IMG/VR virus record: IMGVR_UViG_3300025000_000449
Span: 1-22,262 of that record
Source of the DNA: a virus
Direction: 5' to 3' (one strand)
Length of the DNA: 22,262 bases
Below, in pieces: positions 7,761-21,733 of the stretch. The notes beneath the pieces were generated by a model. The model saw only the letters and a list, made by a program, of their open reading frames with translations, searched no databases and was not told where the DNA came from. Positions within the stretch are counted from its first letter, which is position 1, and every line of letters begins with the position of its first letter. The position numbers were made by a program, and so were the translations under genes.

Positions 7761-7763
7761 GAC

Positions 7764-8009: not shown

Positions 8010-8031
8010 GATTTGGGTACTTACTTGTCAT
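8002..8031 (-). other. possible 9-codon leader peptide
   Basis: GGAGGACTTATG gives a strong ribosome site and start. The frame encodes MTSKYPNHE and stops at TAG within the start region of the 81-aa gene. It may load ribosomes for that gene by termination-reinitiation. Confidence 0.4.
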
Positions 8032-8046
8032 AAGTCCTCCATGTAA

Positions 8047-8078
8047 AGAGGGCAGGGGATAGTTAGTCCCCCACCCTT
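8047..8078 (-). terminator. possible GC-rich hairpin downstream of palindrome copy 3
   Basis: On the minus strand GGGTGGGGGA and TCCCCTGCCC can pair imperfectly around ACTAAC, followed by TCTTTAC. It could act as an attenuator between the palindrome and the 81-aa gene. Confidence 0.3.
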
Positions 8079-8089
8079 AAGGTTAAATG

Positions 8090-8112
8090 CTATGTTACAT
8101 AATGTAACAAAG
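8090..8112. repeat. 23-bp palindrome, copy 3
   Basis: Arms CTATGTTAC and GTAACAAAG around ATAAT, four bases after the stop of the 145-aa gene and 59 bases before the possible leader peptide. Confidence 0.88.
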
Positions 8113-8115
8113 GGA

Positions 8116-8553
8116 TTACGCCCCAGTGACGAACTTCTTCACTTCATTCTGATCACCATATTGTTCTGAGTGGGAGACTCCTAGGATAGCGTAACCCTCC
8201 TTGCCGACCATATTAGAAAAGTTGATCTCAGCCAAACCGAAGGCACGTTTGAAACATTCGAGTTCCCATTTAGTGCCATTCAGTTTCTTAGGTTCCATTT
8301 CAGGAGTGGGTACCATGAAGACCTTGGACAAGCCCTTGGAGAATTCCTCATCGGGGATATCAAAGGTGATGATAAAGAACTTGTTGCCAGCTTCAGAGGT
8401 TCGGATAATCTTGCCCTCGGAGTCCTTCTTGAATCCTGTAATACGGATCTTGTACTCTCCAGGGTCTACTACTGAAGGCTCCTGAGAGTCACTGGTGTCG
8501 ATGTCAAGGAGAGTCTCGTTCATTGCTGCCATTTCTTCGTCGAATTCGGACAT
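8116..8553 (-). CDS. possible single-stranded DNA-binding protein
   Basis: 145 aa with an acidic N-terminus and then a beta-rich core: GEYKIRITGF, KFFIITFDIP, KVFMVPTPEM, FKRAFGL, EGYAILGVSHSE. This looks like the DUF669/OB-fold type proteins that accompany Sak4-like ATPases in phages. It lacks the acidic DDDIPF-like tail of bacterial SSB. It sits two genes after the Sak4-like ATPase, which supports a role in coating DNA during recombination. The function is inferred from pattern and context. GAGG lies eight bases upstream of the ATG. Confidence 0.55.
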   Translation of the reverse strand: MSEFDEEMAAMNETLLDIDTSDSQEPSVVDPGEYKIRITGFKKDSEGKIIRTSEAGNKFFIITFDIPDEEFSKGLSKVFMVPTPEMEPKKLNGTKWELECFKRAFGLAEINFSNMVGKEGYAILGVSHSEQYGDQNEVKKFVTGA

Positions 8554-8587
8554 AATTGTTGCCTCATTAGGTTGGGGTGGTTAGTAT

Positions 8588-8601
8588 AGGGCTAAGGCCC
8601 T
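8588..8601 (-). other. short hairpin AGGGC/GCCCT
   Basis: A 5-bp stem with a 4-base loop, 10 bases after the stop of the 93-aa gene and upstream of the 145-aa gene. There is no T-run. It may be a processing or pausing site. Confidence 0.3.
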
Positions 8602-8611
8602 CAGGTGTTAT

Positions 8612-8893
8612 TTACTTTTGGTTAAAGAGCTCGAGGGCTCCGCGGAGCTTGCCGATTACCTTTGTTTTCTCTGGTGGGTTTACCTCCTCGACGATTGAGA
8701 TTAGTTGGGGAATAGATTCATTGAAGATATCTACAGCATTCATGTCAGGAGTATTCATAATCTCCTGTCTGAGTTCCTCAATGGTGTCAGCAGGGGTTCT
8801 GACGGGAGCCTCCAAGATCTTCTCCGTTTGGTGTTTATCTTCCTCTTTGAGAGGGAGATCGGGGTCATCTGGTAATGTTACTCTAAAGGTCAT
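8612..8893 (-). CDS. acidic hypothetical protein, 93 aa
   Basis: Unrecognised. It is strongly acidic in its first two thirds (DDPDLPLKEEDK) and helical-looking throughout, ending KVIGKLRGALELFNQK. AGGAGG lies five bases upstream of the ATG, an excellent site. It starts ten bases after the Sak4-like ATPase and precedes the possible ssDNA-binding protein, so it may be an accessory subunit of that recombination set. That is inference from position. Confidence 0.65.
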   Translation of the reverse strand: MTFRVTLPDDPDLPLKEEDKHQTEKILEAPVRTPADTIEELRQEIMNTPDMNAVDIFNESIPQLISIVEEVNPPEKTKVIGKLRGALELFNQK

Positions 8894-8902
8894 ACTTACC
8901 TC

Positions 8903-9640
8903 CTATAAGGTGAAATCACATTTTGAGTCCTTCAGGTCAACTCCTGAATAGTACTCGTCTATACGTCTGGACACTATATCCAGGTCGTTTGGGATTCGGT
9001 TAGGGAACATATCATAAGGACTTTTGGCAGTGGTATAACCATTACTCTGGGTGGCGAAGTAGTACATTTGCTTATCATTTTCGGAGAAGACTTCGCCAAA
9101 GAGGACGATGGAACTCAGACCCTCCAAGGTCACCTTGTCATCCAAGAGTTTGCCCAGGGTCTTCATTTTACGCTCAGTGCCGGTGTCCTCCTCGTGGGTG
9201 AGGAAGAACACCTTAAGGCCAGGGCGGAGTTTAGTAGTGAGGAGAATAATCTCAAAGATGTTCTTAGCCATCATGGTAAACTTCTCGTAGCCTTTCTCAA
9301 GGGCCTTCATCATGAATTCTGTAGCCATGACGTAGTGGCCGTCGTCAATTACGAGGTTCTTCCATTTCTCGTTGCGGGAGACTTCCATCATAGTACTGCG
9401 GATTTTGGCAGCATCGGTGGACACCAGCATGTTGTCCTTCTCCTGGTATTGGCCACCTTTAGGGAAGGGGAGAGGTTTGCCCAGAATGTTGATGAGGAAG
9501 GTTTCCTTAGGGTCAAGGTTACGGATGGCGGTGGACTTGCCTCGGCCACTCTTGGCTATTATGAGGATGAGCATACTTTTCTGGCCCTTATAGAGGGCAA
9601 TTGCATCAGTAGGGTCGAGATGATGATTGATTTCAGACAT
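8903..9640 (-). CDS. Sak4-like RecA-fold ATPase
   Basis: 245 aa. Walker A AKSGRGKST is at residues 29-37. Walker B is in NLVIDDGHYV, with D99 and D100. A later segment VFFLTHEED resembles the sensor strand of RecA-fold enzymes, and the C-terminus has FPNRIPNDLDIV. Length and motif spacing suit the Sak4 group of phage single-strand annealing or strand-exchange ATPases. The neighbours are a possible ssDNA-binding protein and a Cas4/RecB-like nuclease, a common phage recombination set. The start at 9640 is chosen because GAGG lies seven bases upstream; the in-frame codon 12 bases earlier has no such site. Annealing activity is inferred. Confidence 0.78.
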   Translation of the reverse strand: MSEINHHLDPTDAIALYKGQKSMLILIIAKSGRGKSTAIRNLDPKETFLINILGKPLPFPKGGQYQEKDNMLVSTDAAKIRSTMMEVSRNEKWKNLVIDDGHYVMATEFMMKALEKGYEKFTMMAKNIFEIILLTTKLRPGLKVFFLTHEEDTGTERKMKTLGKLLDDKVTLEGLSSIVLFGEVFSENDKQMYYFATQSNGYTTAKSPYDMFPNRIPNDLDIVSRRIDEYYSGVDLKDSKCDFTL

Positions 9641-9649
9641 GATTAGCCT

Positions 9650-9662
9650 CACTAGGTTAGTG
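9650..9662 (-). other. hairpin next to a ribosome site
   Basis: CACTA/TAGTG with a 3-base loop, directly beside the GAGG site of the Sak4-like gene. It could reduce ribosome access. Weak evidence. Confidence 0.25.
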
Positions 9663-9693
9663 TTATTAGATTTCTATTGAGTAATTCTATATC

Positions 9694-9942
9694 CTATTCT
9701 TCGTATGAATAGTTTTCAAGAAGTGCTAAGGTTTCATCAAATTCCCTGGTATTCATCCAGTAAGAACATACTTTAATTCCCTCAAGAAATATTTTCATTA
9801 CTTCTGCTGGAGGACATTCTGGTTTTAGTATAAATATTCTTCCAGAATTTCTTGTAGCCATATAAAGTTCAAGGGTGTTGGACATTTCTCCAATACAAAG
9901 TTCTCTAACTTCATCTTTACATATAATATACTCAGTACCCAT
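9694..9942 (-). CDS. hypothetical protein, 82 aa
   Basis: Unrecognised. An acidic, Cys-containing protein (CKDEVRELCIGE), then RIFILKPECPPAEVMKIFLEG and an acidic tail. AGGAG lies seven bases upstream of the ATG. It is AT-rich compared with the nuclease and ATPase genes on either side, suggesting a separately acquired small gene. It begins ten bases after the nuclease gene stops. Confidence 0.65.
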   Translation of the reverse strand: MGTEYIICKDEVRELCIGEMSNTLELYMATRNSGRIFILKPECPPAEVMKIFLEGIKVCSYWMNTREFDETLALLENYSYEE

Positions 9943-9951
9943 GGCATTCTC

Positions 9952-10905
9952 CTAAAGGGTTAATATCTCACGCAATTCCTCTTCCAAGGGGTTCCAGAAA
10001 CTCACTTCCAGATCAGTGGGCATCCTTTCGATATGCTGAAGAGGGTTTGCGTGGCTGGTGCACATATCGAGGTAGATACAAGTACGACCCCAATTAGTAC
10101 AACTTCTACCATTCATTACGAAACACTTCATTATGTCATCAGAAGGGGATGATGTCTCAAGTTCCTCCACATCTCTGTAGATCTTATCCATCCAGGCCTT
10201 GGTGTTCTCAAGCCATTTGTACATTTGTATATTGCTTAGAAGGATGGGGAAGCGTTGGAGGATGTACTCGGGTTTCTTAGTCTTCTTCATACAGAGGCAG
10301 TTGATGATTACTCCACTGACCTTAGATGGTGGGACCATACAATTGAGGACGTGGGTGTATGTCCCTACCTGAATCCCCATCATGTGTTCGTAGTAGTATC
10401 CGTCTCCGATATAGTTCCCTCCCTTCGTCTTGTGCTCCAAAGAGCAATAGAGACCCGTTTCACGATCGATAAGGACGGTGTCCATCTTGAAAGCTAACTT
10501 ATGCTTCTCAGACAGACTCACTGTACCACCGAACTCCGTCTTGTAGACCTCATATCGGGTGAGGTCATCCGGGTAAGTCTTAAGATATTGGATTAACATG
10601 TCGAAGAAGCGAGTAGGAGTCTTCGGGCTATAGATCACATCAGTCTCTTCGGGGAAGAAGGCCCGGTACTCCTGGTTGAACATCTCCAGAGCTTCCATCA
10701 CAGCTTCCACTCTATAACCATGGAGGATTATGTGTTCCAGGGCGATGTGTACTGCCTTTCCAAAGTGCAAATGGTTATTAGGACGAGCACTCCGCCAACC
10801 CAACATATACTCGTAGAAAAACATTCTTGGGCATGATTGGTAGGCTTGGACCTTGGTGGAGTCCAGCACCTCCTGAGACGGGTGGTAAGGTATGGGTAAG
10901 GACAT
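9952..10905 (-). CDS. Cas4/RecB-like PD-(D/E)XK nuclease with probable iron-sulfur cluster
   Basis: 317 aa. The N-terminus has STKVQAYQSCPRMFFYEY (C25) and HFGKAVHIALE, typical of the RecB-family fold. The catalytic core is D142 in FKMDTVLID and E157-H-K159 in SLEHKTK, followed by QVGTYTH. Three cysteines near the C-terminus (KCFVMNGRSC, then TC and MC) together with C25 match the 1+3 cysteine layout of Cas4 and AddB, which hold a 4Fe-4S cluster. It probably processes DNA ends for the Sak4-like recombination system. No CRISPR array or cas genes are nearby, so an adaptation role is unlikely. The start at 10905 has GAGGAG upstream, one base after the previous stop. Confidence 0.85.
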   Translation of the reverse strand: MSLPIPYHPSQEVLDSTKVQAYQSCPRMFFYEYMLGWRSARPNNHLHFGKAVHIALEHIILHGYRVEAVMEALEMFNQEYRAFFPEETDVIYSPKTPTRFFDMLIQYLKTYPDDLTRYEVYKTEFGGTVSLSEKHKLAFKMDTVLIDRETGLYCSLEHKTKGGNYIGDGYYYEHMMGIQVGTYTHVLNCMVPPSKVSGVIINCLCMKKTKKPEYILQRFPILLSNIQMYKWLENTKAWMDKIYRDVEELETSSPSDDIMKCFVMNGRSCTNWGRTCIYLDMCTSHANPLQHIERMPTDLEVSFWNPLEEELREILTL

Positions 10906-10906
10906 T

Positions 10907-11080
10907 TTAGATCTCCTCAAGTTCTTTGGAAATTCTTTCTTCCATGAATCTAAGTATCCACTGAGCCACTATTACTGATGGGATCAGGGGACATAGTTCG
11001 ATGATGGCTGCTATGCAGATCTCCTCGGAGATTCCCTCTTTATGCATTGAGAGGACTTTCTTGTATTGTTTGTTAGTCAT
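10907..11080 (-). CDS. small helical hypothetical protein, 57 aa
   Basis: Starts MTNKQYKKVLSMHKEG and ends EERISKELEEI. It is helical with a hydrophobic middle (IAAIIELCPLIPSVIVAQW), which may pack against a partner or, less likely, insert in a membrane. AAGGAGG lies about six bases upstream of the ATG. It overlaps the gene before it by eight bases and ends one base before the nuclease start, and its last codons carry the nuclease's ribosome site. This packing strongly supports a real gene. Confidence 0.65.
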   Translation of the reverse strand: MTNKQYKKVLSMHKEGISEEICIAAIIELCPLIPSVIVAQWILRFMEERISKELEEI

Positions 11081-11399
11081 TCCTTACCTCCTTAGTAGCA
11101 TCTACAAAATTACATTCGAGAAGGATATTAACTATTTCCTCAGGAGTAGTGTTTGAATCTATAACAGAGAGTTTAGAGAAAAGGTCTTTGAATTCTTCAA
11201 AAGCTATCCAACTATCATAGAACATACAGAGTTGAACTGTAGGAATTTTACCTAGATCTATCCAATTAATAGAGAATTCAAATTCACAAGATTCATCCTC
11301 GTCATAGAGGCCTATGGTGATGTTATCTATAATTGTATCTGCTGCAAGACATACTTTACCATACCAAGCACGTTTGAGTTGTCTAAATTCTCTTCTCAT
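11073..11399 (-). CDS. acidic hypothetical protein, 108 aa
   Basis: Unrecognised. A basic first 12 residues (RREFRQLKR) are followed by an acidic, beta-rich middle (ITIGLYDEDESCEFEFSINWIDLG) and a helical tail. AAGGAG lies about eight bases upstream. It is AT-rich. It overlaps the genes on both sides, by 8 bases downstream and 17 upstream. Confidence 0.65.
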   Translation of the reverse strand: MRREFRQLKRAWYGKVCLAADTIIDNITIGLYDEDESCEFEFSINWIDLGKIPTVQLCMFYDSWIAFEEFKDLFSKLSVIDSNTTPEEIVNILLECNFVDATKEVRND

Positions 11400-11604
11400 C
11401 TTTTATCTCCTTAAGTATTCTAGCATATTCCCAAGAATTTACTATGTGCTGAATAGATTCTCGGGCTACACTTATGTTATATTTCTCTGATTTCGAAACA
11501 CACTCTCGATTGGATAGGTGGGAGAGGGTGCTGAGGACTCCTCTAATGAGGAATTTAGTCCAGTTGCGTTTCTGGGCAAGTCTCGTCTTGAGTGAGTTCT
11601 TCAA
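11383..11604 (-). CDS. hypothetical protein, 73 aa, TTG start
   Basis: Unrecognised basic, helical protein (KNSLKTRLAQKRNW, SVARESIQHIVNSWEYARILKEI). The open frame extends upstream with no ribosome site. The best start is TTG at 11604, with CGGAGG seven bases before it. This makes the gene overlap the 3' end of the 116-aa gene by 50 bases. The start is a judgement; the frame downstream is well supported by its fit with the next gene. Confidence 0.5.
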   Translation of the reverse strand: MKNSLKTRLAQKRNWTKFLIRGVLSTLSHLSNRECVSKSEKYNISVARESIQHIVNSWEYARILKEIKDEKRI

Positions 11605-11905
11605 AAGAGATCCTCCGTTGTTTGTAGTGACCCTTGTTGTCCCCACCGATTTGGTAGATGAGGAGATTGAGGACACCGTGTTTGATTGAGAACATGCTGC
11701 ATAGGATGCTGGTCATCACCGAAGGTCCCGAGACCAGGATGTAGTCCTCTTTCGTAGATGCCTGAATGATAGGCATGAACGTCCGATACATTCGGCCTAT
11801 GGAGAGGATGCTGATCTTGCCTGCGGTGAGGTAGATCAACTCCCCGAAGCGTGTAGCCTCTGAGAAGTCATGATAGCTTTTGTTAGGGATGAAGACTTTA
11901 GTCAT
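11555..11905 (-). CDS. conserved phage hypothetical protein, 116 aa
   Basis: Pattern RFGELIYLTAGKISILSIGRMYRTF...DYILVSGPSVMTSILCSMFSIKHGVLNLLIYQIGG is one I associate with a widespread phage family of unknown function, with a central strand-helix core and a conserved LNLLIY segment. A GGAG site lies ten bases upstream of the chosen ATG. It overlaps the end of the 76-aa gene by eight bases. The ribosome site of the following TTG-start gene lies inside its 3' end. Confidence 0.65.
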   Translation of the reverse strand: MTKVFIPNKSYHDFSEATRFGELIYLTAGKISILSIGRMYRTFMPIIQASTKEDYILVSGPSVMTSILCSMFSIKHGVLNLLIYQIGGDNKGHYKQRRISFEELTQDETCPETQLD

Positions 11906-12128
11906 GGGAATACTCTCCAATTTGCATCATTATACTTCTACCATTCTCTGACAATTCTTTACATTTAGTAATAGCTTCTAACTGGAAACAGAAAGGATTA
12001 GGCCATTTAGAAGATATTTTATATATAGTGTTGAAGAACTTTGCCTGATCTCCAGAATTCATATCGCAGAAGATTTCTGCCAGTTCTTCAGGTGTGGGAT
12101 GGATCTCGATTGTTATAGTTCGATTCAT
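11898..12128 (-). CDS. hypothetical protein, 76 aa
   Basis: Begins MNRTITIEIHPTPEELAEIFCDMNSGDQAKFF and continues helical. The TPEELAEIFCDMNSxxQAxFF pattern recurs in small phage proteins of unknown role. AAGGAG lies six bases upstream of the ATG. Palindrome copy 4 ends 18 bases upstream, so it is probably the first gene of a block. A longer in-frame reading upstream runs through that palindrome and lacks a ribosome site, so I rejected it. Confidence 0.7.
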   Translation of the reverse strand: MNRTITIEIHPTPEELAEIFCDMNSGDQAKFFNTIYKISSKWPNPFCFQLEAITKCKELSENGRSIMMQIGEYSHD

Positions 12129-12145
12129 AAGGATCTCCTTGATTG

Positions 12146-12168
12146 CTATGTTACAATATGTAATGTAG
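12146..12168. repeat. 23-bp palindrome, copy 4
   Basis: Arms CTATGTTAC and GTAATGTAG around AATAT, flanked by TTG on the left and CAA on the right, which extends the symmetry. It lies between the ligase gene and the 76-aa gene. Confidence 0.9.
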
Positions 12169-12172
12169 CAAA

Positions 12173-12189
12173 TACTTTCTTCGAAAGTA
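12173..12189 (-). terminator. 7-bp hairpin after the ligase gene
   Basis: TACTTTC/GAAAGTA around TTC, four bases past the ligase stop and just upstream of palindrome copy 4. It has no long T-run, so termination is only possible, not shown. Confidence 0.35.
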
Positions 12190-12192
12190 GGG

Positions 12193-13059
12193 TTAGATGA
12201 TTCGTACTGCTCTGGAGAACAGTGGGACTTTGTTCTTATCAGACATGGTTTGGTACTCAATTTCTAAATACCTACCTGAAAGATCTTCAGGAGCAGCTAA
12301 CCAATGTTCCCAGATATATGCTCTATCTTGATGAGAGATTTTACCTGCCCCCACAGAGAAGGGAGTCCCCATGTCGTCAATGCAGTTGAAGCCACCTACC
12401 ATACCTTTACCCTTGCCTTCGGCAGTGATGGCCTCATATACACCAGTTATGAGGTATTCATCTGAAGCTTTCGGCTTAAATTTCATCATAGCAGGGGACC
12501 TCCTCCTCAAGTATGTAGCATCTACATGCCTAATGATGAAGCCCTCGTAGCCAAGGCCGATGAACTTTTCGTAAATTTGGTAGATTTCTTCAAGAGTGTT
12601 GGCCATATACGGTACAACAAGTTTCAGGCATGGGGAAAGACTATTAGACTTGAACCTCTGGTTCAATTGGATTAACCTGTTGATCTGACTCCCCTCAGTA
12701 ATAATGTCGAATAGGTGAAGTTGCATAGCTCCATAGTTAGGGTGCATGGTGCTAGTGGTCGAGACCACACTGTGGATTTCAGCCCAGGTCCATCCGTGAA
12801 CATAGAGTTCACCGTCGAATTCTCCCTGGGGCAGAAGGAGGCCAGCCTCATTTATGTGAGGCACGGAGGATATTATCTCCTCCGTTGAGGAGAGGAGGAG
12901 GCACCTATCTCCCTCATGGATCAGACGGCACCTCTCCCCGTTCAGCTTGGGCTGAAGGATGTAAGGAGGGGACCATTTGAGGAAGAAGCGACCTTGATTT
13001 AATAGGCGACGTTCTTCGAAGGGGTATGCTAACTGGATGCCAGAGCGTGGATTGGACAT
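12193..13059 (-). CDS. ATP-dependent DNA ligase
   Basis: 288 aa. Motif I is QPKLNGER with the nucleotidyl-accepting Lys at residue 38. Motif III is FDGELYVHG, IIIa LHLFDII, IV GYEGFIIRH and V MMKFKPK. A short OB-like C-terminal domain includes GGFNCIDDMGTPFSVGAG. This is the minimal two-domain ligase typical of phages, with no zinc finger or BRCT domain. It seals nicks after lagging-strand synthesis or recombination. AAGGAG lies about eight bases upstream. It follows the DnaJ-like zinc protein and ends an operon before a hairpin and palindrome copy 4. Confidence 0.92.
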   Translation of the reverse strand: MSNPRSGIQLAYPFEERRLLNQGRFFLKWSPPYILQPKLNGERCRLIHEGDRCLLLSSTEEIISSVPHINEAGLLLPQGEFDGELYVHGWTWAEIHSVVSTTSTMHPNYGAMQLHLFDIITEGSQINRLIQLNQRFKSNSLSPCLKLVVPYMANTLEEIYQIYEKFIGLGYEGFIIRHVDATYLRRRSPAMMKFKPKASDEYLITGVYEAITAEGKGKGMVGGFNCIDDMGTPFSVGAGKISHQDRAYIWEHWLAAPEDLSGRYLEIEYQTMSDKNKVPLFSRAVRII

Positions 13060-13070
13060 ATTATCTCTCC

Positions 13071-13277
13071 TTAATCATTCTCAGGAATGGGGCCACAAGA
13101 ACAAGCTGCCTTAATCATTGCTCCACAATATTGACAGTATGGAGAAGAATCGTAATCTTCATCATCCCACTTATGCTTGCCACTACCATTGCAATTCATA
13201 CAGGCACTTTCAGTACCTTCTATATCAGTACAAAGGCCAGTACCATTACAACATTCACAGTCTTCTGTATGTTTCAT
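13071..13277 (-). CDS. DnaJ-type Cys-rich zinc protein, 68 aa
   Basis: Carries two CxxCxGxG repeats (CECCNGTG and CMNCNGSG), as in the DnaJ zinc domain, then CQYCG and CSCG. With about eight paired cysteines it could hold two zinc ions. No J domain is present. Its ATG overlaps the upstream stop as TAATG, with GGAGG before it. It could help folding or bind nucleic acid; neither is shown. Confidence 0.72.
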   Translation of the reverse strand: MKHTEDCECCNGTGLCTDIEGTESACMNCNGSGKHKWDDEDYDSSPYCQYCGAMIKAACSCGPIPEND

Positions 13278-13549
13278 TAGTGGCCCTCCTTCAACTCTCC
13301 TGAAATTCTAACGAGATTGGACAGACAGAACACCTCACAAGTGTTAAGGGTGATGGCCAACTTGGCTGAGTAGGTGCCAGAGTCCCATACATCTTCTTTG
13401 TAAGTGGGGAAGAGTTGGAGGAAGGAACCTTCAGTCATGTGGATCTTAGGGTGGTTATTAGAGAGGTAGACTCCAAGGATGCCGTGAGATGCTGGTGCGT
13501 CCTTGAGAAGGGAGGTAAGTTCGGATAGGAACTCCAATTGTGTAGTCAT
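13277..13549 (-). CDS. hypothetical protein, 90 aa
   Basis: Unrecognised. It has mixed alpha/beta character, with LEFLSELTSLLKDA at the front and TYSAKLAITLNTCEVFCLSNLV later. GGAG lies seven bases upstream of the ATG. A TGGCC/GGCCA hairpin at 13562-13574 lies in its short leader. It is the first gene after the terminator of the gene at 13681-14076, so it needs a promoter of its own, and I could not find a convincing one. Confidence 0.65.
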   Translation of the reverse strand: MTTQLEFLSELTSLLKDAPASHGILGVYLSNNHPKIHMTEGSFLQLFPTYKEDVWDSGTYSAKLAITLNTCEVFCLSNLVRISGELKEGH

Positions 13550-13561
13550 AATGGACTCCAG

Positions 13562-13574
13562 TGGCCGAAGGCCA
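13562..13574 (-). other. hairpin TGGCC/GGCCA in a leader
   Basis: A 5-bp GC-rich stem with a GAA loop (on the plus strand), 13 bases upstream of the 90-aa gene start and close to its ribosome site. It may affect translation. Confidence 0.3.
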
Positions 13575-13614
13575 AGGGCTGTTTTTGATATTAATTTGTG
13601 GCAATCTAGTGGAG

Positions 13615-13638
13615 AAAAATCCCCTCCCCTACGGGGAG
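13615..13638 (-). terminator. intrinsic terminator
   Basis: On the minus strand CTCCCC and GGGGAG pair around GTA, followed by GGGATTTTTC with a five-T run. It lies about 40 bases past the stop of the 131-aa gene. This is the clearest factor-independent terminator in the window. Confidence 0.75.
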
Positions 13639-13680
13639 TAGGAGAAGGGATGGTTGAGTTAATCTTGACTACAAGAGGGT

Positions 13681-14076
13681 TTAGTCGACAGCTACGCCAA
13701 GTTCCCTCAAGTATTCCTTCTGCTTCTCCGGAGTCCAGGTGGCGAAGGCAGCCTTGACGGCCTGAACAGGATCGACCTGAGTCTTTTCGACGGCCACGCC
13801 GAGGACGTAAGTGGAGATGAATTCCTGGATCTTTTCAGCAGAGAGGCCAGCCTTGAGTTTGGCACGAATAATTCCCTGGATTACGACACGGGCGTTGGCT
13901 TTGAACTGGGAGAAGACTACGTCAGAGCCGAACTTCTCACTTGCTGCCTCGATGGAATCACCGAGGTCATAGTCCACCTGACATTCCTGCCATACAGCCT
14001 TTCCCTCACCGTCCAAGACTGCATTTCCATTCTCATCTTTTACCTGATACCGTGCTGAGATCTGTTCCATTGCCAT
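13681..14076 (-). CDS. hypothetical protein with its own promoter and terminator, 131 aa
   Basis: I do not recognise the function. The N-terminus looks beta-rich (ARYQVKDENGNAVLDGEGKAVWQECQ is one stretch by position 8-33). A helical core follows with KANARVVIQGIIRAKLKAG and EKIQEFISTYV, then WTPEKQKEYLRELG. The gene has a consensus promoter (14158-14185), GGAGG eight bases before the ATG and an intrinsic terminator, making it a stand-alone expression unit. It looks richer in GC than its neighbours. These traits suit an abundant early protein or a moron-type gene. The 133-aa protein at 18380-18781 has a loosely similar layout. Confidence 0.72.
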   Translation of the reverse strand: MAMEQISARYQVKDENGNAVLDGEGKAVWQECQVDYDLGDSIEAASEKFGSDVVFSQFKANARVVIQGIIRAKLKAGLSAEKIQEFISTYVLGVAVEKTQVDPVQAVKAAFATWTPEKQKEYLRELGVAVD

Positions 14077-14157
14077 AATGTTACCTCCAGTTGATATTGT
14101 TATTTGTGGGCTAGATGCCCGATGTATGGAGCGCCGATGTGCTCCGATTGAATGGCC

Positions 14158-14185
14158 ATTATACCATGCTGAATGGGTATGTCAA
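14158..14185 (-). promoter_or_regulatory. consensus sigma70 promoter, leftward
   Basis: The -35 box TTGACA (14185-14180) and -10 box TATAAT (14163-14158) match the consensus exactly, with a 16-base spacer. It drives the 131-aa gene, with an untranslated leader of about 75 bases. Confidence 0.88.
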
Positions 14186-14190
14186 CAACT

Positions 14191-14210
14191 AATGGAAATT
14201 TATTTCCATT
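14191..14210 (-). terminator. AT-rich hairpin after the 76-aa gene
   Basis: AATGGAAAT/ATTTCCATT around TT, one base past the stop at 14212 and just upstream of the consensus promoter. It may end or slow incoming transcription. Confidence 0.4.
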
Positions 14211-14211
14211 C

Positions 14212-14442
14212 CTACACAAGAGTAGGACTAAGGGTAGCTAGATGGATATCCTGAGGACCTTCGTCAATCTCACGGATTACCCATCTATCCTGCATTAAGT
14301 ATCTAGCTGTCTCATTATCGAATTGCATAGTGAGTTCTCTATCTTCTGAGTTAGCCACTAATGTGGCCTCCTCAAGGGAGTTAGCTTCAACTATGGTGTA
14401 AGCAGTGAGTGGAACTTTGGCTACAAAGTGATAAGTAGGCAT
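14212..14442 (-). CDS. small DpnD/PcfM-like hypothetical protein, 76 aa
   Basis: Begins MPTYHFVAKVPLTAYTIVEANSLEEA. The strand-then-VEAxSLEEA pattern resembles the small DpnD/PcfM-type proteins found on phages and conjugative elements, whose role is unknown. CGGAG lies about eight bases upstream. It is the last gene of its block, followed by an AT-rich hairpin and the promoter of the next gene. Confidence 0.65.
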   Translation of the reverse strand: MPTYHFVAKVPLTAYTIVEANSLEEATLVANSEDRELTMQFDNETARYLMQDRWVIREIDEGPQDIHLATLSPTLV

Positions 14443-14485
14443 AGTAGATCTCCGTGGGTAAGGGTGGCGTATAGGAATAGTAGGG

Positions 14486-14686
14486 TCATAATTCCTCCAT
14501 TGGTATGGGTTTGATTAGATGGGTTAGTCTGGGCCAAGGTTGAGAGTGCCACAGTACTTCCACTATGCTAGGGTAGCGATATGCTAGGCTGTAGTACTCG
14601 ATGCCCTCAGGCACAGGAATGGAGTTCTCCACCTGTATAGGGTGAAAGGAAACTCTATTGTTTCGGATATTGTAGTACCTATTCAT
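14486..14686 (-). CDS. hypothetical protein, 66 aa
   Basis: Unrecognised. It is rich in Tyr, Pro and Trp (NRYYNIRNNR, EYYSLAYRYP, WHSQPWPRL). The ATG overlaps the tail of the previous gene by eight bases, so translation is probably coupled. The ribosome site is weak (AAGAAGAG). Supported mainly by packing. Confidence 0.55.
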   Translation of the reverse strand: MNRYYNIRNNRVSFHPIQVENSIPVPEGIEYYSLAYRYPSIVEVLWHSQPWPRLTHLIKPIPMEEL

Positions 14687-14951
14687 CACAGGACTCTTCT
14701 TCTGGAGTGGTTAGTTTGTACTGCTCCATATTGTGAGAAGCAGTGAAGAGGGCCTGAGATAAAAGCTCCATAGCTTCTTGAGTGAGATGCATATCAGTTA
14801 TGAAAGGTTTAGCATCTGGACCATCCCAGAAGGTTGAGATTCTTACTGAAGTATTAGCGTTGGACCATCTAGTTACTTCTATAGAACGATTGGGATTCCT
14901 AGTGTCCTTAGCTATGAAGGAATGTGTAGGAGTGATATTTGGCTCTGTCAT
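14679..14951 (-). CDS. hypothetical protein, 90 aa
   Basis: Unrecognised. It has alternating polar sequence with a likely small beta sheet (SIEVTRWSNANTSVRISTFW), then a helix (LTQEAMELLSQALFTASHNM) and an acidic end. AAGGA lies eight bases upstream of the ATG, two bases after the previous stop. It resembles small phage proteins that carry a front sheet and a back helix. Confidence 0.6.
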   Translation of the reverse strand: MTEPNITPTHSFIAKDTRNPNRSIEVTRWSNANTSVRISTFWDGPDAKPFITDMHLTQEAMELLSQALFTASHNMEQYKLTTPEEESCDE

Positions 14952-14953
14952 GA

Positions 14954-15475
14954 TTATAGTCCTTTTGGTAGGCCGACTGGTTCAGATGGCTGACACTTGC
15001 AGGTTATGGAACTTAGAAGTTCCTCAATGAAAGCTGCCCTCTCGTCCTTATTGAGTGATGCTAAGACTTCTTTCATTTGATCCGCTCTAGGCATTGAGGA
15101 ACGGGTGTAAGTAGGTTGAGTTGTGAGAGTGTGTTTGGGAACTCTCTTGACCAAGCCAGAAAGTTCAGCCTGCCTAATGATGATAGCCGTTTGCAATTCA
15201 GACCACTTCTTTCTCTCGGCTTTGGCCTCCACGAGTTCGGCCTCAAGTTGCCGCTCCCAACAGAGGGAGTCAGTGAGGGAGGCTCGCACTGAGGCAAGGG
15301 CAGAGCGGAGTGTGGAGAGTTTGGTCATTCTATTAATGGATTGCTTTGTTACATTTTGTAATGTAGCAATATCTTCTTCCGGAAGGGTGCTAGGAAGGGG
15401 TGGTAGAGTGGTGGGACAGGCCTCAGACAGTGGAGCATATTCTTTGGTACTAGTTCTCTCTTCTTCTGTTCTCAT
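14954..15475 (-). CDS. coiled-coil hypothetical protein, 173 aa (start uncertain)
   Basis: Unrecognised. The C-terminal 120 residues are helical, with a coiled-coil stretch (RQLEAELVEAKAERKKW) and a Lys/Asp-rich tail containing LNKDERAAFIEELL. Two starts compete. ATG 15475 has GGAG five bases upstream but adds a Pro/Ser/Thr-rich front that runs through palindrome copy 5. ATG 15328 lies 16 bases after that palindrome, like other palindrome-linked genes, but lacks a ribosome site. I list the longer form. A still longer reading from 15607 has no ribosome site and overlaps the next gene. Confidence 0.55.
   Translation of the reverse strand: MRTEEERTSTKEYAPLSEACPTTLPPLPSTLPEEDIATLQNVTKQSINRMTKLSTLRSALASVRASLTDSLCWERQLEAELVEAKAERKKWSELQTAIIIRQAELSGLVKRVPKHTLTTQPTYTRSSMPRADQMKEVLASLNKDERAAFIEELLSSITCKCQPSEPVGLPKGL
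15344..15366. repeat. 23-bp palindrome, copy 5
   Basis: Arms CTTTGTTAC and GTAATGTAG around ATTTT, with ATTG and CAAT flanks that extend the symmetry. It lies 16 bases upstream of an alternative ATG of the coiled-coil gene, or inside that gene if the longer form is right. Confidence 0.85.
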
Positions 15476-15548
15476 TAGTTCTCCAGTACTGCCGCTGGCA
15501 GCTAGTGTTCTTAGGCTTGGCACATTAGTGCCACTAGTGGTGGCAGGG

Positions 15549-15866
15549 TTAGACTCCGAAGGGGCAGAAACTGTGAGAGGGGTTCCAACCACTAACATTC
15601 TTAACATATTTATAACTAGAAGTTAAGTCTATAGTTCCCTTAATTATACCTTTTCGGAGTTCAGTAAATCTTTTTCTAGAATAGGTTATATGACCTCTTC
15701 GGCCAGAGAAATTAGGAGCATTCTTCATTTTGAGACAGTGAAGGAATTCCTTAGGATCATCAGCATTTACTATAGTTATACCAATGTCCTTGACACACGC
15801 TACTACACGCCCTTTATACTTACCACCATTAGCTGAGATGAAATCTATAATTTTGTCTTCGAACAT
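15549..15866 (-). CDS. hypothetical protein, 105 aa
   Basis: Unrecognised. An opening helix (MFEDKIIDFISANGG) is followed by strands (YKGRVVACVKDIGITIVNADDP) like a small SH3- or barrel-type fold, then a basic region (GRRGHITYSRKRFTELRKG). AAAGGAGG lies seven bases upstream of the ATG, an excellent site. It is AT-rich. The basic half suggests nucleic-acid contact but nothing proves it. Confidence 0.65.
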   Translation of the reverse strand: MFEDKIIDFISANGGKYKGRVVACVKDIGITIVNADDPKEFLHCLKMKNAPNFSGRRGHITYSRKRFTELRKGIIKGTIDLTSSYKYVKNVSGWNPSHSFCPFGV

Positions 15867-15881
15867 GGCAAGCCTCCTTTG

Positions 15882-16100
15882 TTATCCAGTTATTTCATCA
15901 AAACAGAGTTCGCACAACCCTGAGATTGAATACTCTTTTCGGCCTGCAGGACTATAGCATCTAGGTGCTGCAATCTTCTTACAGTTGATACATACACCTA
16001 TCTCTTTGGCCCTTGATAGAGGGATGCCAAACAGCTGACGGGCCAAGTCTTCTTGGAGTGCGTGTAGTGAAGCACTAACGTGCTGGGGTTCAGAACTCAT
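15882..16100 (-). CDS. phage zinc-ribbon protein, 72 aa
   Basis: CINC near residue 38 and CELC near residue 64 frame a single zinc ribbon, with RCYSPAGRKEYSISGLCELCFDEI between and after. The combination of CxNC, AGRxEYxISGxCExCFD is one I associate with a common small phage family of unknown function. AAGGAG lies about ten bases upstream. It precedes the 105-aa gene in the same block. Confidence 0.7.
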   Translation of the reverse strand: MSSEPQHVSASLHALQEDLARQLFGIPLSRAKEIGVCINCKKIAAPRCYSPAGRKEYSISGLCELCFDEITG

Positions 16101-16125
16101 GACTTCTTTCTCCTTTTGGTATGAG

Positions 16126-16653
16126 TTATTCTATTGGAGGGATTTCCCCAAGTACTGAGAACATATCCTGACTTCTTTTCTGACCTTCTTCAATCTGGCC
16201 GCTGAGTTCCTTGAGTAGACGCTCATTGAGTAGAGACTGGGCCTGAAGGAGTTCCGGAGAATCGTTACCCACGGCGGCATCCCTCCTTCCCTTTGAATGA
16301 AGTTTGACTTTCTCTACAGGGTCCAAGAATGTCTGAAGAGAGTTAGGGTTGATCTTACCTTCTTTAGCCAGAGCTTTGAGAACATTAGTCCTCTGAACAC
16401 CTTGGGTCATCAATCCTGTGGTGGCCAGGAGTTCAGAGGCAGCCTCCTGAGAGTCGATAAAGTCTACCATATGTGAGGTGACGAGCATCTCAGCAAAGGA
16501 TTCAAGGGAGAGTCTGGCTAACTCAGAAATGGACCTAGGGGCCTCACCAGCACCCCTCCAAAATGCGACTAATGTCGCCAGGTGCCTCATGTCAGCACGG
16601 GTGGAGATGGCAAGGGTTGCCTTTCGGGTATGAACTTGATCTAATTTACTCAT
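16126..16653 (-). CDS. helical hypothetical protein, 175 aa
   Basis: Unrecognised and almost entirely helical: RADMRHLATLVAFWRGAG, ISELARLSLESFAEML, TTGLMTQGVQRTNVLKALAKEG and a long C-terminal helix. The start at 16653 is chosen because GGAG lies seven bases upstream and its ATG overlaps the previous stop as ATGA. The in-frame ATG at 16686 would lie inside that gene. Function unknown. Confidence 0.65.
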   Translation of the reverse strand: MSKLDQVHTRKATLAISTRADMRHLATLVAFWRGAGEAPRSISELARLSLESFAEMLVTSHMVDFIDSQEAASELLATTGLMTQGVQRTNVLKALAKEGKINPNSLQTFLDPVEKVKLHSKGRRDAAVGNDSPELLQAQSLLNERLLKELSGQIEEGQKRSQDMFSVLGEIPPIE

Positions 16654-16808
16654 TTCTTTCTCCGCATTTTTCCTCTCATTTTCCAAAGTTTCTTGGCATT
16701 GTAAGACTTTGGCTTAGGATACTCTTTCTTAGCAGAGTATCTGAGTTCGTAAGATCCAAAATCTACTGGACATCGTAGCAGTATGTCTATTTTTGTTTCT
16801 GGATACAT
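16650..16808 (-). CDS. very basic small protein, 52 aa
   Basis: Starts MYPETKIDILLRCPVD and ends KMRGKMRRKK, with most of the C-terminal half Lys or Arg. GGAGG lies three to four bases upstream of the ATG, and the stop overlaps the start of the 175-aa gene as ATGA. The basic tail suggests DNA or RNA binding. No family recognised. Confidence 0.65.
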   Translation of the reverse strand: MYPETKIDILLRCPVDFGSYELRYSAKKEYPKPKSYNAKKLWKMRGKMRRKK

Positions 16809-16837
16809 TATACCTCCAATTATTATCAGTATTGGAC

Positions 16838-16867
16838 CTCATCACATTAGTGATGCCAGTAATGGGC
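16838..16867. repeat. dispersed hairpin repeat, copy A
   Basis: CTCATCACAT-TA-GTGATGCCAG followed by GGGCC four bases on. The CATCAC/GTGATG stem lies 25-40 bases past the stop of the 71-aa gene on the minus strand. A near copy is at 20160-20188. Confidence 0.55.
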
Positions 16868-16879
16868 CACAGTTGAATT

Positions 16880-17095
16880 CTACTTACAGTTGGAGATAAA
16901 CTCTCTTAGAACCTTATCATGAGAGGAATCATTCTGACGAATTCCAAGAGAGTGTTTTATCTCAGGGATGATCTCAGTAGGGTTAATGGCCCGAGAAGTG
17001 GTGACCATCCGAGTGTACTTCTCTTTCTTGTAGGAATTGAGAGAGTGGAGAGATCTGGTAACAGCTTCGATGTACTTGATTTCTTGTGACTTCAT
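16880..17095 (-). CDS. hypothetical protein, 71 aa
   Basis: Unrecognised, basic and helical (EAVTRSLHSLNSYKKEKYTRM, then IPEIKHSLGIRQND). The start at 17095 (MKSQEIKY) is chosen because GGAG lies eight bases upstream. The open frame continues upstream through palindrome copy 6, which I take as non-coding. It begins the block that ends with the 105-aa gene at 15549. Confidence 0.55.
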   Translation of the reverse strand: MKSQEIKYIEAVTRSLHSLNSYKKEKYTRMVTTSRAINPTEIIPEIKHSLGIRQNDSSHDKVLREFISNCK

Positions 17096-17180
17096 AGCAG
17101 TAGCTCCATAACAAGAGTTGATAAGTGTAGGCTCATGTCCTAGGCATGGCCCTGTGGGACGGTGGAGATAGGACGGAGTC

Positions 17181-17203
17181 CTATGTTCCATATTGTAATG
17201 TAG
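17181..17203. repeat. 23-bp palindrome, copy 6
   Basis: Arms CTATGTTCC and GTAATGTAG around ATATT, 86 bases upstream of the 71-aa gene. In copies 6-9 the left arm ends TTCC instead of TTAC. Confidence 0.88.
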
Positions 17204-17254
17204 CAACCAATGGTTGCTGGAAGGATAGGGTGAAGGTGATTGCTATCCGCAATC
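17202..17254 (-). terminator. tandem hairpins after the one-TM protein gene
   Basis: GATTGC/GCAATC (17238-17254) begins one base past the stop, and AGCAAC/GTTGCT (17202-17218) follows, both with 5-base loops. No T-run follows. They probably mark an operon end, possibly by pausing or RNA processing. Confidence 0.4.
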
Positions 17255-17464
17255 CTACAAACCTTTAGGCACACCTGTGCTCAGGGCATCAATAATAGGT
17301 TGGAATATTTCGTGGGCAGCATGAGTACCAAAGTAAATGAGGAGACCCACTAAGGTGGCAGCTCCGAGGCTCCAAAGGACTCCTAGGCACACTGCTTCGG
17401 TGGACATTGCAGACAACGGGGTGAAGGTGTTCTTGTGTGATGTGGAACGAGTATTAGTCTTCAT
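17255..17464 (-). CDS. single-pass membrane protein, 69 aa
   Basis: A Ser/Thr-rich basic front is followed by one clear membrane segment, CLGVLWSLGAATLVGLLIYF, near residues 26-45, and a short amphipathic tail. No signal cleavage site is evident. GGAG lies seven bases upstream of the ATG and the gene overlaps the previous one by 11 bases. It is transcribed early and far from the lysis genes, so an inner-membrane role such as superinfection exclusion or host takeover is possible, but this is speculation. Confidence 0.65.
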   Translation of the reverse strand: MKTNTRSTSHKNTFTPLSAMSTEAVCLGVLWSLGAATLVGLLIYFGTHAAHEIFQPIIDALSTGVPKGL

Positions 17465-17699
17465 GAGATTCTCCAAGAGGTTGAGATAATTTGGGACACT
17501 TGCCTTGAAATATCTTCAACATTTCAAAGGCATCTGCCATACTAGCCATTCTAAACCAACTTTTGGGCATAGTGCTACGGCCCTGTACGTAGTGAAACCA
17601 TACGATGTCAGGAGGATCTACAGCAATCTCTGCTACGAGTTTACCCTTCTCATACAACTCATACATGATGAAACCCTTCTTGACATACTTCCTAGTCAT
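17454..17699 (-). CDS. hypothetical protein, 81 aa
   Basis: Unrecognised. It starts basic (MTRKYVKKGF) and continues with strands (YELYEKGKLVAEIAV, DIVWFHYVQG) and a helix (SMADAFEMLKIFQG). TGGAGG lies five bases upstream of the ATG. A near-consensus promoter lies about 40 bases upstream, so this is the first gene left of the origin-like stretch. Confidence 0.65.
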   Translation of the reverse strand: MTRKYVKKGFIMYELYEKGKLVAEIAVDPPDIVWFHYVQGRSTMPKSWFRMASMADAFEMLKIFQGKCPKLSQPLGESHED

Positions 17700-17740
17700 A
17701 GGCCCTCCAGTAAGTTAAGGTTCTGTCTGATTGTCCCATT

Positions 17741-17769
17741 ATTTTAACACACCCATAATGCATTGTCAA
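17741..17769 (-). promoter_or_regulatory. near-consensus sigma70 promoter, leftward
   Basis: -35 TTGACA (17769-17764) matches perfectly and -10 TAAAAT (17746-17741) matches five of six, with a 17-base spacer. It sits at the left edge of the origin-like region and drives the 81-aa and one-TM genes. Confidence 0.75.
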
Positions 17770-17799
17770 TATCTAACCATATTATATTATCTTGACTTG

Positions 17800-18150
17800 G
17801 GGGCATTGTAGATGCCCATTGTCATGGATGACATGGTTGTGACGCCTTGCATGTAAGTCATGCATGTCATGGACCCCGTGTGTACGCTCATTGTCCATAT
17901 TCCAATGGTACATTTCTCTTCTCTCATTTATATATAAGTAGTTAAGTATATATTGATTGTTAGTTATATATGTAATAGAATTTCTATATATACATATTGT
18001 TAATTACTTATATATTATCTTTTAATTAGATATGTATATATAACTGAAGACAAATGTACCATTGCAATTTCGCACACAGACCGGGTTCATGCGGTGCATG
18101 ACATACATCAACCCCATGCATTGCATGACAATATGACATGCATGACAAAT
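17800..18150. other. candidate replication origin
   Basis: A gene-free stretch with an AT-rich core of about 137 bases framed by a perfect 13-bp inverted repeat (CAATGGTACATTT near 17903, AAATGTACCATTG near 18053). Inside lies a second inverted pair of about 18 bases with two mismatches (near 17928 and 18001) and a central ATAGAA-T-TTCTAT. Outside, TGTCATG-type heptamers occur on the left (near 17820, 17856 as AGTCATG, 17865) and as CATGACA on the right (near 18098, 18125, 18142). A GGGCAT/ATGCCC hairpin sits near 17801. AT-rich core plus inverted iteron-like repeats is what an initiator-dependent origin looks like. No initiator is identified. A partition site or regulatory region is the alternative. 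Confidence 0.6.
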
Positions 18151-18169
18151 GGTCACTGTGTGACCCTTG

Positions 18170-18286
18170 CTAATACTCCATATATGTCCAATATAGGAAT
18201 TGGATACGTTTGGAGAATTCATAGTAGTGGCCGACCTCAATAGATGCCTGCCTTTCCATAATCCTATACACTATCCAATGTTTCAT
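18170..18286 (-). CDS. small hypothetical protein, 38 aa
   Basis: Starts MKHWIVYRIMERQ and ends LYWTYMEY, rich in Tyr and Trp. AAGGAG lies seven bases upstream of the ATG, as good as any site in the window. Palindrome copy 7 ends 26 bases upstream of the start. It lies between the 133-aa gene and the origin-like region. Very short, so less certain. The end may be off by one base. Confidence 0.5.
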   Translation of the reverse strand: MKHWIVYRIMERQASIEVGHYYEFSKRIQFLYWTYMEY

Positions 18287-18311
18287 GATGATTCTCCTTA
18301 TTGAATGGTTC

Positions 18312-18334
18312 CTATGTTCCATAATGTAATGTAG
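18312..18334. repeat. 23-bp palindrome, copy 7
   Basis: Arms CTATGTTCC and GTAATGTAG around ATAAT, 26 bases upstream of the 38-aa gene, with a hairpin on its right side. Confidence 0.9.
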
Positions 18335-18359
18335 GAATGGCTCCTTTCGAGGCCACTCC
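18334..18359 (-). terminator. bulged GC-rich hairpin after the 133-aa gene
   Basis: GGAATGG/CCACTCC with one mismatch, then CCT/AGG around a 4-base loop, about 20 bases past the stop. No T-run. It is a probable operon boundary beside palindrome copy 7. Confidence 0.45.
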
Positions 18360-18379
18360 CATCATGAGCTTGACCGATG

Positions 18380-18781
18380 TTATCCTTGTTCGGCCTCTTC
18401 TTTAGCCACAGCTGCCTCGATCAAACTATCATACATTTCTTGCGTGATGAATCCACCCATGACCAGAGCATCCAGGCGTTCAGTCTCACTCAGCTTATTC
18501 ATATCGGCCGCCACGGCTTTCTTCTGTTCCTCAATGGTCATGACCTTGGCTACACGTTTAGCGAACATAGCCTGGCCAATGGTCAATTCCCGGGGATATT
18601 CCCCTTTGATGAATGCACTCCAGTTGTTCCGAATCTGCGATTGAATTTCCACCGTATACGCTTTGAGAGCGTATTTGAGCATGGTAGCGTCATCACATTT
18701 CTCCACATTGACCACGACGTCGAATACATTACCGGCCAATTTCTCCTCGTTGTTCATTGCAATCTTGAATTTCATTTCCAT
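18380..18781 (-). CDS. hypothetical protein, 133 aa, CGN-only arginine codons
   Basis: Unrecognised. A beta front (MEMKFKIAMNNEE, NVFDVVVNVEKC) leads to helices (KYALKAYTVEIQSQIRNNW, then TIEEQKKAVAADMNKLSETERL) and an acidic end. The start at 18781 is chosen because GGAG lies six bases upstream; an earlier in-frame ATG at 18796 is part of that site. All four arginines use CGN codons, whereas AGA and AGG are common in the genes to the left. The layout resembles the 131-aa protein at 13681-14076. It is probably cotranscribed with the 62-aa gene upstream from the consensus promoter at 19084. Confidence 0.65.
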   Translation of the reverse strand: MEMKFKIAMNNEEKLAGNVFDVVVNVEKCDDATMLKYALKAYTVEIQSQIRNNWSAFIKGEYPRELTIGQAMFAKRVAKVMTIEEQKKAVAADMNKLSETERLDALVMGGFITQEMYDSLIEAAVAKEEAEQG

Positions 18782-18811
18782 GATATGCTCCATTGGTGTT
18801 GGTTGATAGAT

Positions 18812-18837
18812 GGGAATGGCCTTCATTGACCATTCCC
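18812..18837 (-). other. 8-bp intercistronic hairpin
   Basis: GGGAATGG/CCATTCCC, perfect, with a 10-base loop, between the 62-aa and 133-aa genes. No T-run, so it is more likely an RNA stability or processing element than a terminator. Confidence 0.45.
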
Positions 18838-18846
18838 GAATAATCC

Positions 18847-19035
18847 TCAATAGCCTGTAATTTCATCGGATTCCAAGCTGATAACTCCGCTTGGTTCCCA
18901 TCCCATGCTAATATATTTCAGCCGATAATTTACGGAATCATATTCCGGGCACAGCTCCGATATGTCCACATTCAGCACCACATCAAGCTCCGGGTTAACC
19001 TTTTGTAATTCAATGATCAGCTCACGTACTTTCAT
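18847..19035 (-). CDS. small conserved-type hypothetical protein, 62 aa
   Basis: Starts MKVRELIIELQKVNPELDVVLNVD, the opening of a widespread small family (MxVxELIxxLxKxxPxxxV) found in phages and bacteria with no firm function. The rest is beta-rich. GGGAG lies seven bases upstream of the start. It is the first leftward gene after the consensus promoter at 19084-19112, with an untranslated leader of about 40 bases. Its arginine codons are CGN. Confidence 0.7.
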   Translation of the reverse strand: MKVRELIIELQKVNPELDVVLNVDISELCPEYDSVNYRLKYISMGWEPSGVISLESDEITGY

Positions 19036-19083
19036 AATATTCTCCCGATGTCCATTGGCCACATGGCCCTTTCACATGATTCC

Positions 19084-19112
19084 ATTATACACCATTGCCA
19101 CCAGGTTGTCAA
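19084..19112 (-). promoter_or_regulatory. consensus sigma70 promoter, leftward
   Basis: -35 TTGACA (19112-19107) and -10 TATAAT (19089-19084), both exact, with a 17-base spacer. It drives the 62-aa and 133-aa genes and perhaps more of the leftward half. Confidence 0.9.
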
Positions 19113-19215
19113 TCGGCCAGCATCCTATCCCATGTGAAGGCCGGGTCGATGGGGGAAAGCTAGTGGGCGACGCATTAGAACCCCCTACCTACATTGTGTT
19201 GGAGATTTCATTATG

Positions 19216-19229
19216 GTACCAATTGGTAC
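19216..19229. repeat. perfect 14-bp palindrome
   Basis: GTACCAATTGGTAC, perfectly self-complementary, upstream of the leftward promoter. It shares ATGGTAC with the inverted repeats that frame the origin core. Possible operator. Confidence 0.5.
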
Positions 19230-19240
19230 ATGGTGATCTT

Positions 19241-19263
19241 CTACGTTCCATTTCGTAACATAG
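19241..19263. repeat. 23-bp palindrome, copy 8
   Basis: Arms CTACGTTCC and GTAACATAG around ATTTC, in the divergent regulatory region. Confidence 0.88.
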
Positions 19264-19272
19264 CAATCACTC

Positions 19273-19287
19273 TTGCCCTATGGGCAA
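19273..19287. other. hairpin between palindromes 8 and 9
   Basis: TTGCCC/GGGCAA around TAT, 10 bases right of copy 8 and 5 bases left of copy 9. The same palindrome-plus-hairpin pairing is seen at copies 2, 4, 6 and 7. Confidence 0.5.
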
Positions 19288-19291
19288 TCTT

Positions 19292-19314
19292 CTACATTCC
19301 ATAATGTAATATAG
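19292..19314. repeat. 23-bp palindrome, copy 9
   Basis: Arms CTACATTCC and GTAATATAG around ATAAT, 29 bases right of copy 8. Confidence 0.88.
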
Positions 19315-19485
19315 CAACCATCATTTGGGTGGGCCCGAACACTAAGGTGTTCATTAGGAGCGGAACGAGCGACAGCGAGCAGACAGATATCCTTTCCACG
19401 ATCACTTTCATGAGTATGGTTCACATGAGCATTGCGAATGGTAGGATTGGTGATCCTAGTCCTCTCTAATATACCATTTACTTCA

Positions 19486-19514
19486 TTGACAACCCCAGAC
19501 CAGTCTGGTACAAT
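19486..19514 (+). promoter_or_regulatory. consensus sigma70 promoter with operator in the spacer, rightward
   Basis: -35 TTGACA (19486-19491) is exact and -10 TACAAT (19509-19514) matches five of six, with a 17-base spacer. The spacer holds the inverted repeat CCAGAC-CA-GTCTGG (19495-19508). A dimeric protein bound there would block polymerase. It drives the terminase-like gene and probably the rest of the rightward block. Confidence 0.82.
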
Positions 19515-19556
19515 TCCCACATAGGCAGGAATTTTACCTTACTTCAGAGGCACCTT

Positions 19557-20159: not shown

Positions 20160-20188
20160 CTCATCACATACAGTGATGTCAGCGGGCC
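20160..20188. repeat. dispersed hairpin repeat, copy B
   Basis: CTCATCACAT-AC-AGTGATGTCAG followed by GGGCC. The CATCAC/GTGATG stem begins two bases after the terminase-like stop. It is closely similar to copy A at 16838-16867. It may protect or end the transcript. Confidence 0.55.
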
Positions 20189-20263
20189 CCACCGCCACGC
20201 ATGTGCAAGTGAATCTTCAGGGCCGCTTCCATTAGGACCCCATTTCAGAATGGAGGATCTACC

Positions 20264-21028: not shown

Positions 21029-21035
21029 TCCAGCG

Positions 21036-21725: not shown

Positions 21726-21733
21726 GAGAAGTG

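Follow-up and report, generated by a model that had tools for sequence, protein, structure and literature searches.

A single-gene expression unit recurring upstream of the DNA ligase in uncultivated tailed phages encodes a candidate early protein of the replication-recombination module

The stretch of viral DNA analysed here (22,262 nt, hereafter the window; IMG/VR record IMGVR_UViG_3300025000_000449) contains a 131-aa gene which carries its own promoter, ribosome-binding site and terminator (minus strand, 14185-13619). This raises the question of whether the cassette is a moron or a unit for a protein needed in quantity early in infection, both of which had been suggested from the sequence alone. 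The elements of the cassette are as follows.

14193..14208, no strand: palindrome TGGAAATNNATTTCCA, directly upstream of the -35 element, its sole exact match in the window
14185-14180, minus strand: -35 element TTGACA (by sequence)
14158..14185, minus strand: consensus promoter, TTGACA-16-TATAAT with extended -10 TG (12/12 match)
14108..14145, minus strand: leader hairpins (MFE fold, z -2.2)
14083..14088, minus strand: Shine-Dalgarno sequence GGAGGT, 6 nt 5' of the ATG (by sequence; kept in relatives)
13681..14076, minus strand: 131-aa gene of an unnamed phage protein family (ORF, homologs, purifying selection, AlphaFold model)
13619..13651, minus strand: intrinsic terminator, 14-pair stem with 7 G-C pairs followed by TTTTTC

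The extended -10 element reads TGgTATAAT with its last base at 14158, 16 nt from the -35 element, and transcription is predicted to start at approximately 14151, giving a leader of about 75 nt with two hairpins (14145-14128, GGAGC/GCTCC; 14120-14108, GGGC/GCCC). The palindrome could possibly act as an AT-rich UP element or as an operator. Two exact 12/12 promoters were detected in the window compared to a mean of 0.01 in dinucleotide shuffles, of which 1% contained any; the other one (19112-19084) lies at the start of the leftward early block. With a 12/12 promoter, GGAGGT, one gene running from the ATG at 14076 to the stop at 13681 and a terminator stronger than any other in the region scanned (4000-22262), the complete expression unit described in the sequence-only reading is real.

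The cassette had also been described as isolated between two leftward blocks. It does form a unit of its own, but it reads leftward itself and lies inside a leftward block of early/replication genes in a tailed phage, which includes the following.

12193..13059, minus strand: ATP-dependent DNA ligase, the conserved downstream neighbour (phrog_114, E 7e-55; synteny)
9952..10920, minus strand: PD-(D/E)XK (Cas4/exonuclease-like) nuclease of the same module (PF12705, E 6e-10; phrog_1218)
8903..9652, minus strand: Sak4-like ssDNA annealing protein/ATPase of the same module (phrog_2872, E 3e-62)
5757-7151, minus strand: ParB N-terminal domain fused to an N6/N4 DNA methyltransferase
1904-4396, minus strand: 830-aa protein with uracil-DNA glycosylase domain, 3'-5' exonuclease and family A DNA polymerase

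In two related contigs of ~50 kb the opposite arm carries the late genes, the arms being read from the ORF layout. The gene sits in the early/replication arm, in agreement with the suggested early expression.

To determine how widely the gene accompanies this module, loci were collected with a ligase profile, the best 80 of 383 confirmed ligase loci being taken. Using an iterated profile, a homolog of the 131-aa protein was found upstream of the ligase in 58 of these 80 loci. Seven of the 22 loci without one have less than 500 nt of upstream sequence; among the 73 loci with at least 500 nt upstream, 15 have no detectable homolog, and the gene is therefore not obligatory for the ligase. As this set had been chosen by ligase, a converse scan was run from the protein itself. 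The family profile returned 51 loci, partly overlapping with the first set in that some contigs occur in both, and 40 of these loci have a downstream ligase in the same orientation. Of the remaining 11, four are cut off within 1.1 kb, and a Sak4-like ATPase lies downstream in the other seven (ligase and Sak4 were called here by profiles built in this analysis). Across the 51 loci the gene and the ligase diverge together, with a Pearson correlation of identities of 0.71 and a Spearman correlation of 0.34, a value as high being reached in 0 of 999 permutations.

Among 50,697 phage records a single named relative was found, the hypothetical protein WBK39730.1 of Desulfofustis phage LS06-2018-MD01 (OP947158), with 32% identity over 74% of the protein (E 9e-5). 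Its gene directly precedes an ATP-dependent ligase, in the order seen in the window, with nuclease and ATPase genes further on, and a 10/12 promoter ends 82 nt before its ATG. It differs in being without the long N-terminal hairpin insert, and those of its module proteins that were compared are only distant relatives of the ones in the window (ligase 34%, ATPase 25% identity). Genome scans covering 69 and 80 stretches had no relative among them, the same being true of 51 stretches in a scan with the Desulfofustis phage protein, and the plasmid collection gave no match.

The signals flanking the gene were then counted in 84 distinct homologs, with duplicate genes and loci of less than 150 nt upstream or 100 nt downstream dropped beforehand. 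A promoter matching at least 10/12 positions within 200 nt of the gene was present in 51 of the 84, compared to 33 of 742 control genes (Fisher p 2e-36), while a terminator within 160 nt was present in 50 compared to 14 (Fisher p 2e-44), and both together in 30 compared to two (Fisher p 3e-30). The controls were the other same-strand genes of the same loci, minus those overlapping the cassette's own signals, and L117 (loci are numbered with the prefix L) was left out of the promoter counts due to its truncated start. When the first members of 49 clusters at 60% identity were counted, 24 had the promoter, 26 the terminator and 13 both. Ribosome-site strength was not used as evidence because the start codons of homologs had been chosen partly by their match to a ribosome site. 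Homolog leaders often have a hairpin at their very beginning, within a few bases of the predicted start, and over 24 leaders folding was on average better than in shuffled sequence (mean z -1.9), weak cases such as L078 and L114 lying near 0. The signals vary in sequence between lineages while the plan is kept. This high-output architecture is therefore conserved though not universally, 33 of the 84 homologs having no such promoter and 34 no such terminator within these distances. Its recurrence beyond chance and beyond the control genes supports the reading of a product needed in quantity early and extends it to the family.

Ten IMG/VR contigs hold the whole or nearly whole gene, nine at 98-99% protein identity and one at 75%, with an eleventh holding only the first 21 codons at the contig end. 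The nine represent nine out of nine close relatives spanning the site, in a search that was seeded by the cassette protein itself; a ligase-seeded scan gave the same contigs as all of its close relatives (86-89% ligase identity). Across the six aligned sequences with an uninterrupted leader (the window, L016, L018, L019, L021 and L022) the hexamers of the promoter do not differ, and the second leader hairpin is GGGC/GCCC in five sequences of this group and CACC/GGTG in L019. Selection on the gene is strongly purifying, dN/dS against close relatives being approximately 0.02-0.05 compared to 0.07-0.08 for the ligase, with dS near saturation in several pairs.

It should also be noted that the leader of L017 is interrupted between the promoter and the second hairpin by an insertion (L017:5842-5947), upstream of which the promoter remains intact with the same hexamers. 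The insertion contains a tRNA-like element (Rfam RF00005, 30.9 bits, E 9e-5) with an unusual central region, which was not called by ARAGORN and was missed when the entire locus was scanned against Rfam at default settings. In L017 the element would share a transcript with the 131-aa gene. By alignment, L014 and L024 carry the same insertion. Loci with this insert would count as promoterless above because the promoter lies more than 200 nt from the ATG.

The family consensus of the protein is ..YDFG..L..A...FG..VV.SN....A.V..Q...R..L.AG.....I......WKPGV.....DP..A....FA..S.E.....L..L, with G50, V54, Q67, R71, G77, G93, D102 and P103 nearly invariant. Searches of PHROGs, Pfam and NCBIfam with 52 members gave no convincing match (best E 0.0048, 0.0059 and 0.0056, from one member each), and library scans with the single window protein gave only weak ones (E 0.011 to 0.21). 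An AlphaFold model built on a 52-row alignment (pLDDT 90.2, pTM 0.64) improved on one built on 11 mostly near-identical rows (pLDDT 65) and predicts two strands and five helices, arranged as a beta hairpin, one short and one long helix, another helix and a pair of helices at the C-terminus. Foldseek found no PDB or BFVD match to this model at E<=0.001. With VIA-align no match reached Z 5, the best being Z 4.0 over 46 residues. The structure prediction and remote homology search proposed for the protein thus gave no clear family or fold match in these libraries, which is no proof of a new fold.

Several candidates were rejected. Many Cas9 rows at Z of about 2.5-3 were taken as chance structure matches, and a PDB sequence match to 8vd6, a 'CAP repeat' (E 7e-6), owes its score to a short motif added up across five designed repeats. 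An OB-fold single-stranded DNA-binding protein would require a five-stranded barrel, absent from the model. HU/IHF-like nucleoid proteins are expected to be strongly basic, while the median pI of the family is 5.2 and that of the window protein 4.8; this median and the charge of -5.5 of the window protein do not suggest a simple DNA-coating protein. An Ocr-type DNA-mimic anti-restriction protein was discarded as one third of the 52 members are without net negative charge.

A gene family kept ahead of the ligase, with its promoter and terminator enriched over control genes, is most likely an as yet unrecognised core early protein of the ligase/Cas4-like exonuclease/Sak4 module, its activity being judged from context. 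That it is a core early gene of this replication-recombination module, overproduced from its own unit to give a stoichiometric product, is considered about an even chance. The module comprises the ATP-dependent ligase, the Cas4-like nuclease, the Sak4-like ATPase and the family A polymerase, and the cassette would be a dedicated high-output transcription unit within the early operon. The consensus sigma-70-type promoter would initiate a short mRNA, the hairpins near its 5' end may protect it and keep the ribosome site open, and the terminator would stop the transcript after one gene; the small protein would therefore be made far in excess of its neighbours, an abundance read from the signals. 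That a whole family of related viruses retains this gene, in many cases together with its switches and mostly just before the ligase, suggests that they require large amounts of the product during DNA replication. It would probably act stoichiometrically, most likely by coating or scaffolding replicating or recombining phage DNA or as an accessory of the ligase or Sak4, rather than as an enzyme. This role in DNA replication is the least certain step, judged slightly below an even chance, and is drawn from the neighbours, the conservation and the lack of an enzyme family match. The protein at 8116-8553, which presumably resembles an ssDNA-binding protein, could fill the ssDNA-coating role instead. 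More tentatively still, the product may be an unrecognised stoichiometric component, the fourth and most abundant partner, of a widespread recombination-dependent replication module (ligase/Cas4-like nuclease/Sak4) of uncultivated tailed phages, overproduced from its internal transcription unit and folded in a way that has no clear precedent.

As the main rival reading, the protein would serve host takeover or counter-defence in stoichiometric fashion, being produced early and abundantly to titrate a host nuclease, RNA polymerase or restriction system. A small and mostly acidic product (median pI as above), a strong separate promoter and an early position would all suit such a role, but takeover and counter-defence genes usually change quickly, and this gene is conserved over many phage lineages, locked to the replication module and 98-99% identical among close relatives. 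The acidity is also uneven, with 67% of the 52 members negatively charged. With conservation and module linkage arguing against it, this alternative is regarded as unlikely, though it ranks ahead of the others. It is less probable again that the protein is a regulator, abundant early and governing the early-to-late switch or its own promoter. The gene does have its own promoter with a palindrome directly upstream of the -35 element, but that palindrome is retained in only some of the close relatives, as read by eye from the alignments, the protein has no match to a DNA-binding family in the libraries scanned, and regulators seldom need so much product.

The suggestion of higher GC holds locally, with 51% at 13501-14000 compared to ~45% around, but the gene is not foreign in composition, its third-position GC of 0.60 falling within the 0.50-0.62 of conserved replication genes of a relative (ligase 0.55, Sak4-like gene 0.61). 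A moron or horizontally acquired accessory cassette bringing its own promoter and terminator, to which the anatomy and the local GC rise had pointed, is largely refuted and considered very improbable, since the check set in advance (presence in relatives, matching composition) found the cassette always there, in nine of nine spanning close relatives, with third-position GC like that of its core replication neighbours, and the gene is ligase-adjacent across a wide phage range and diverges together with the ligase. The cassette shares the promoter-gene-terminator anatomy of phage morons and is unlike them in not being an insertion itself, as it is kept in place and co-diverges with its neighbours.

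Strong early single-gene units are already known as a kind. Phage T4 gene 32 and T7 gene 10 are highly expressed single genes with stabilising leaders, and the cassette resembles this type in its strong promoter, 5' hairpin, strong ribosome site and terminator, while its protein family is unrelated as far as tested, with no library match. Literature searches on the Desulfofustis phage, on Sak4 and early genes, on genes upstream of ligases, on strongly expressed early genes and on two metagenome numbers gave, in the portions of text retrieved, no description of the family, and the retrieved passages of PMC10370329 treat the history and host prediction of the Desulfofustis phage with the homolog gene unmentioned there. 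Within the libraries and the literature portions covered, neither the family nor its promoter-leader-gene-terminator unit before a ligase was found.

In uncultivated sequence, phages carrying this module appear to be widespread, and yet this strongly promoted early gene occurs in none of the three scanned family libraries and matched only one of the 50,697 named phage records. Being conserved, probably overproduced and encoded beside the ligase, the small protein is a tractable target, which would identify either a missing component of the Sak4-type DNA metabolism of phages or a takeover factor that many of them share.

A number of minor observations were also made. Behind the second perfect promoter (19112-19084) lies an early protein (18380-18850, minus strand) with no library match, which is 100% identical over the aligned length in a relative. 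Comparison with the cassette protein gave an hhalign probability of 11% (P 0.0027; other alignments P 0.081 and 0.09), which only hints at paralogy. A different family, with an LGDAA motif, lies downstream of the ligase in five of the ligase loci that gave no cassette homolog (L095:5694-6125, L106:1481-1903, L109:5805-6218, L113:4100-4516 and L118:2500-2880), two of these loci, L106 and L118, being cut upstream; its remote similarity to the cassette family (probability 14%, P 0.002) is a hint only. Negative controls for these comparisons gave P 0.7 and 0.28. The close relative L047 (contig 3300024999_000153) encodes at 18065-18988 an adenylosuccinate synthetase (PF00709, E 1e-39; third-position GC 0.12) not seen in the window, which may be a PurZ-like enzyme with a link to adenine modification in phage DNA. 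Two loci contain a further, diverged copy of the cassette family, at L137:874-1284 and 3962-4333 (E 2e-11) and, more weakly, at L069:2788-3180 and 3232-3684 (E 0.0017).
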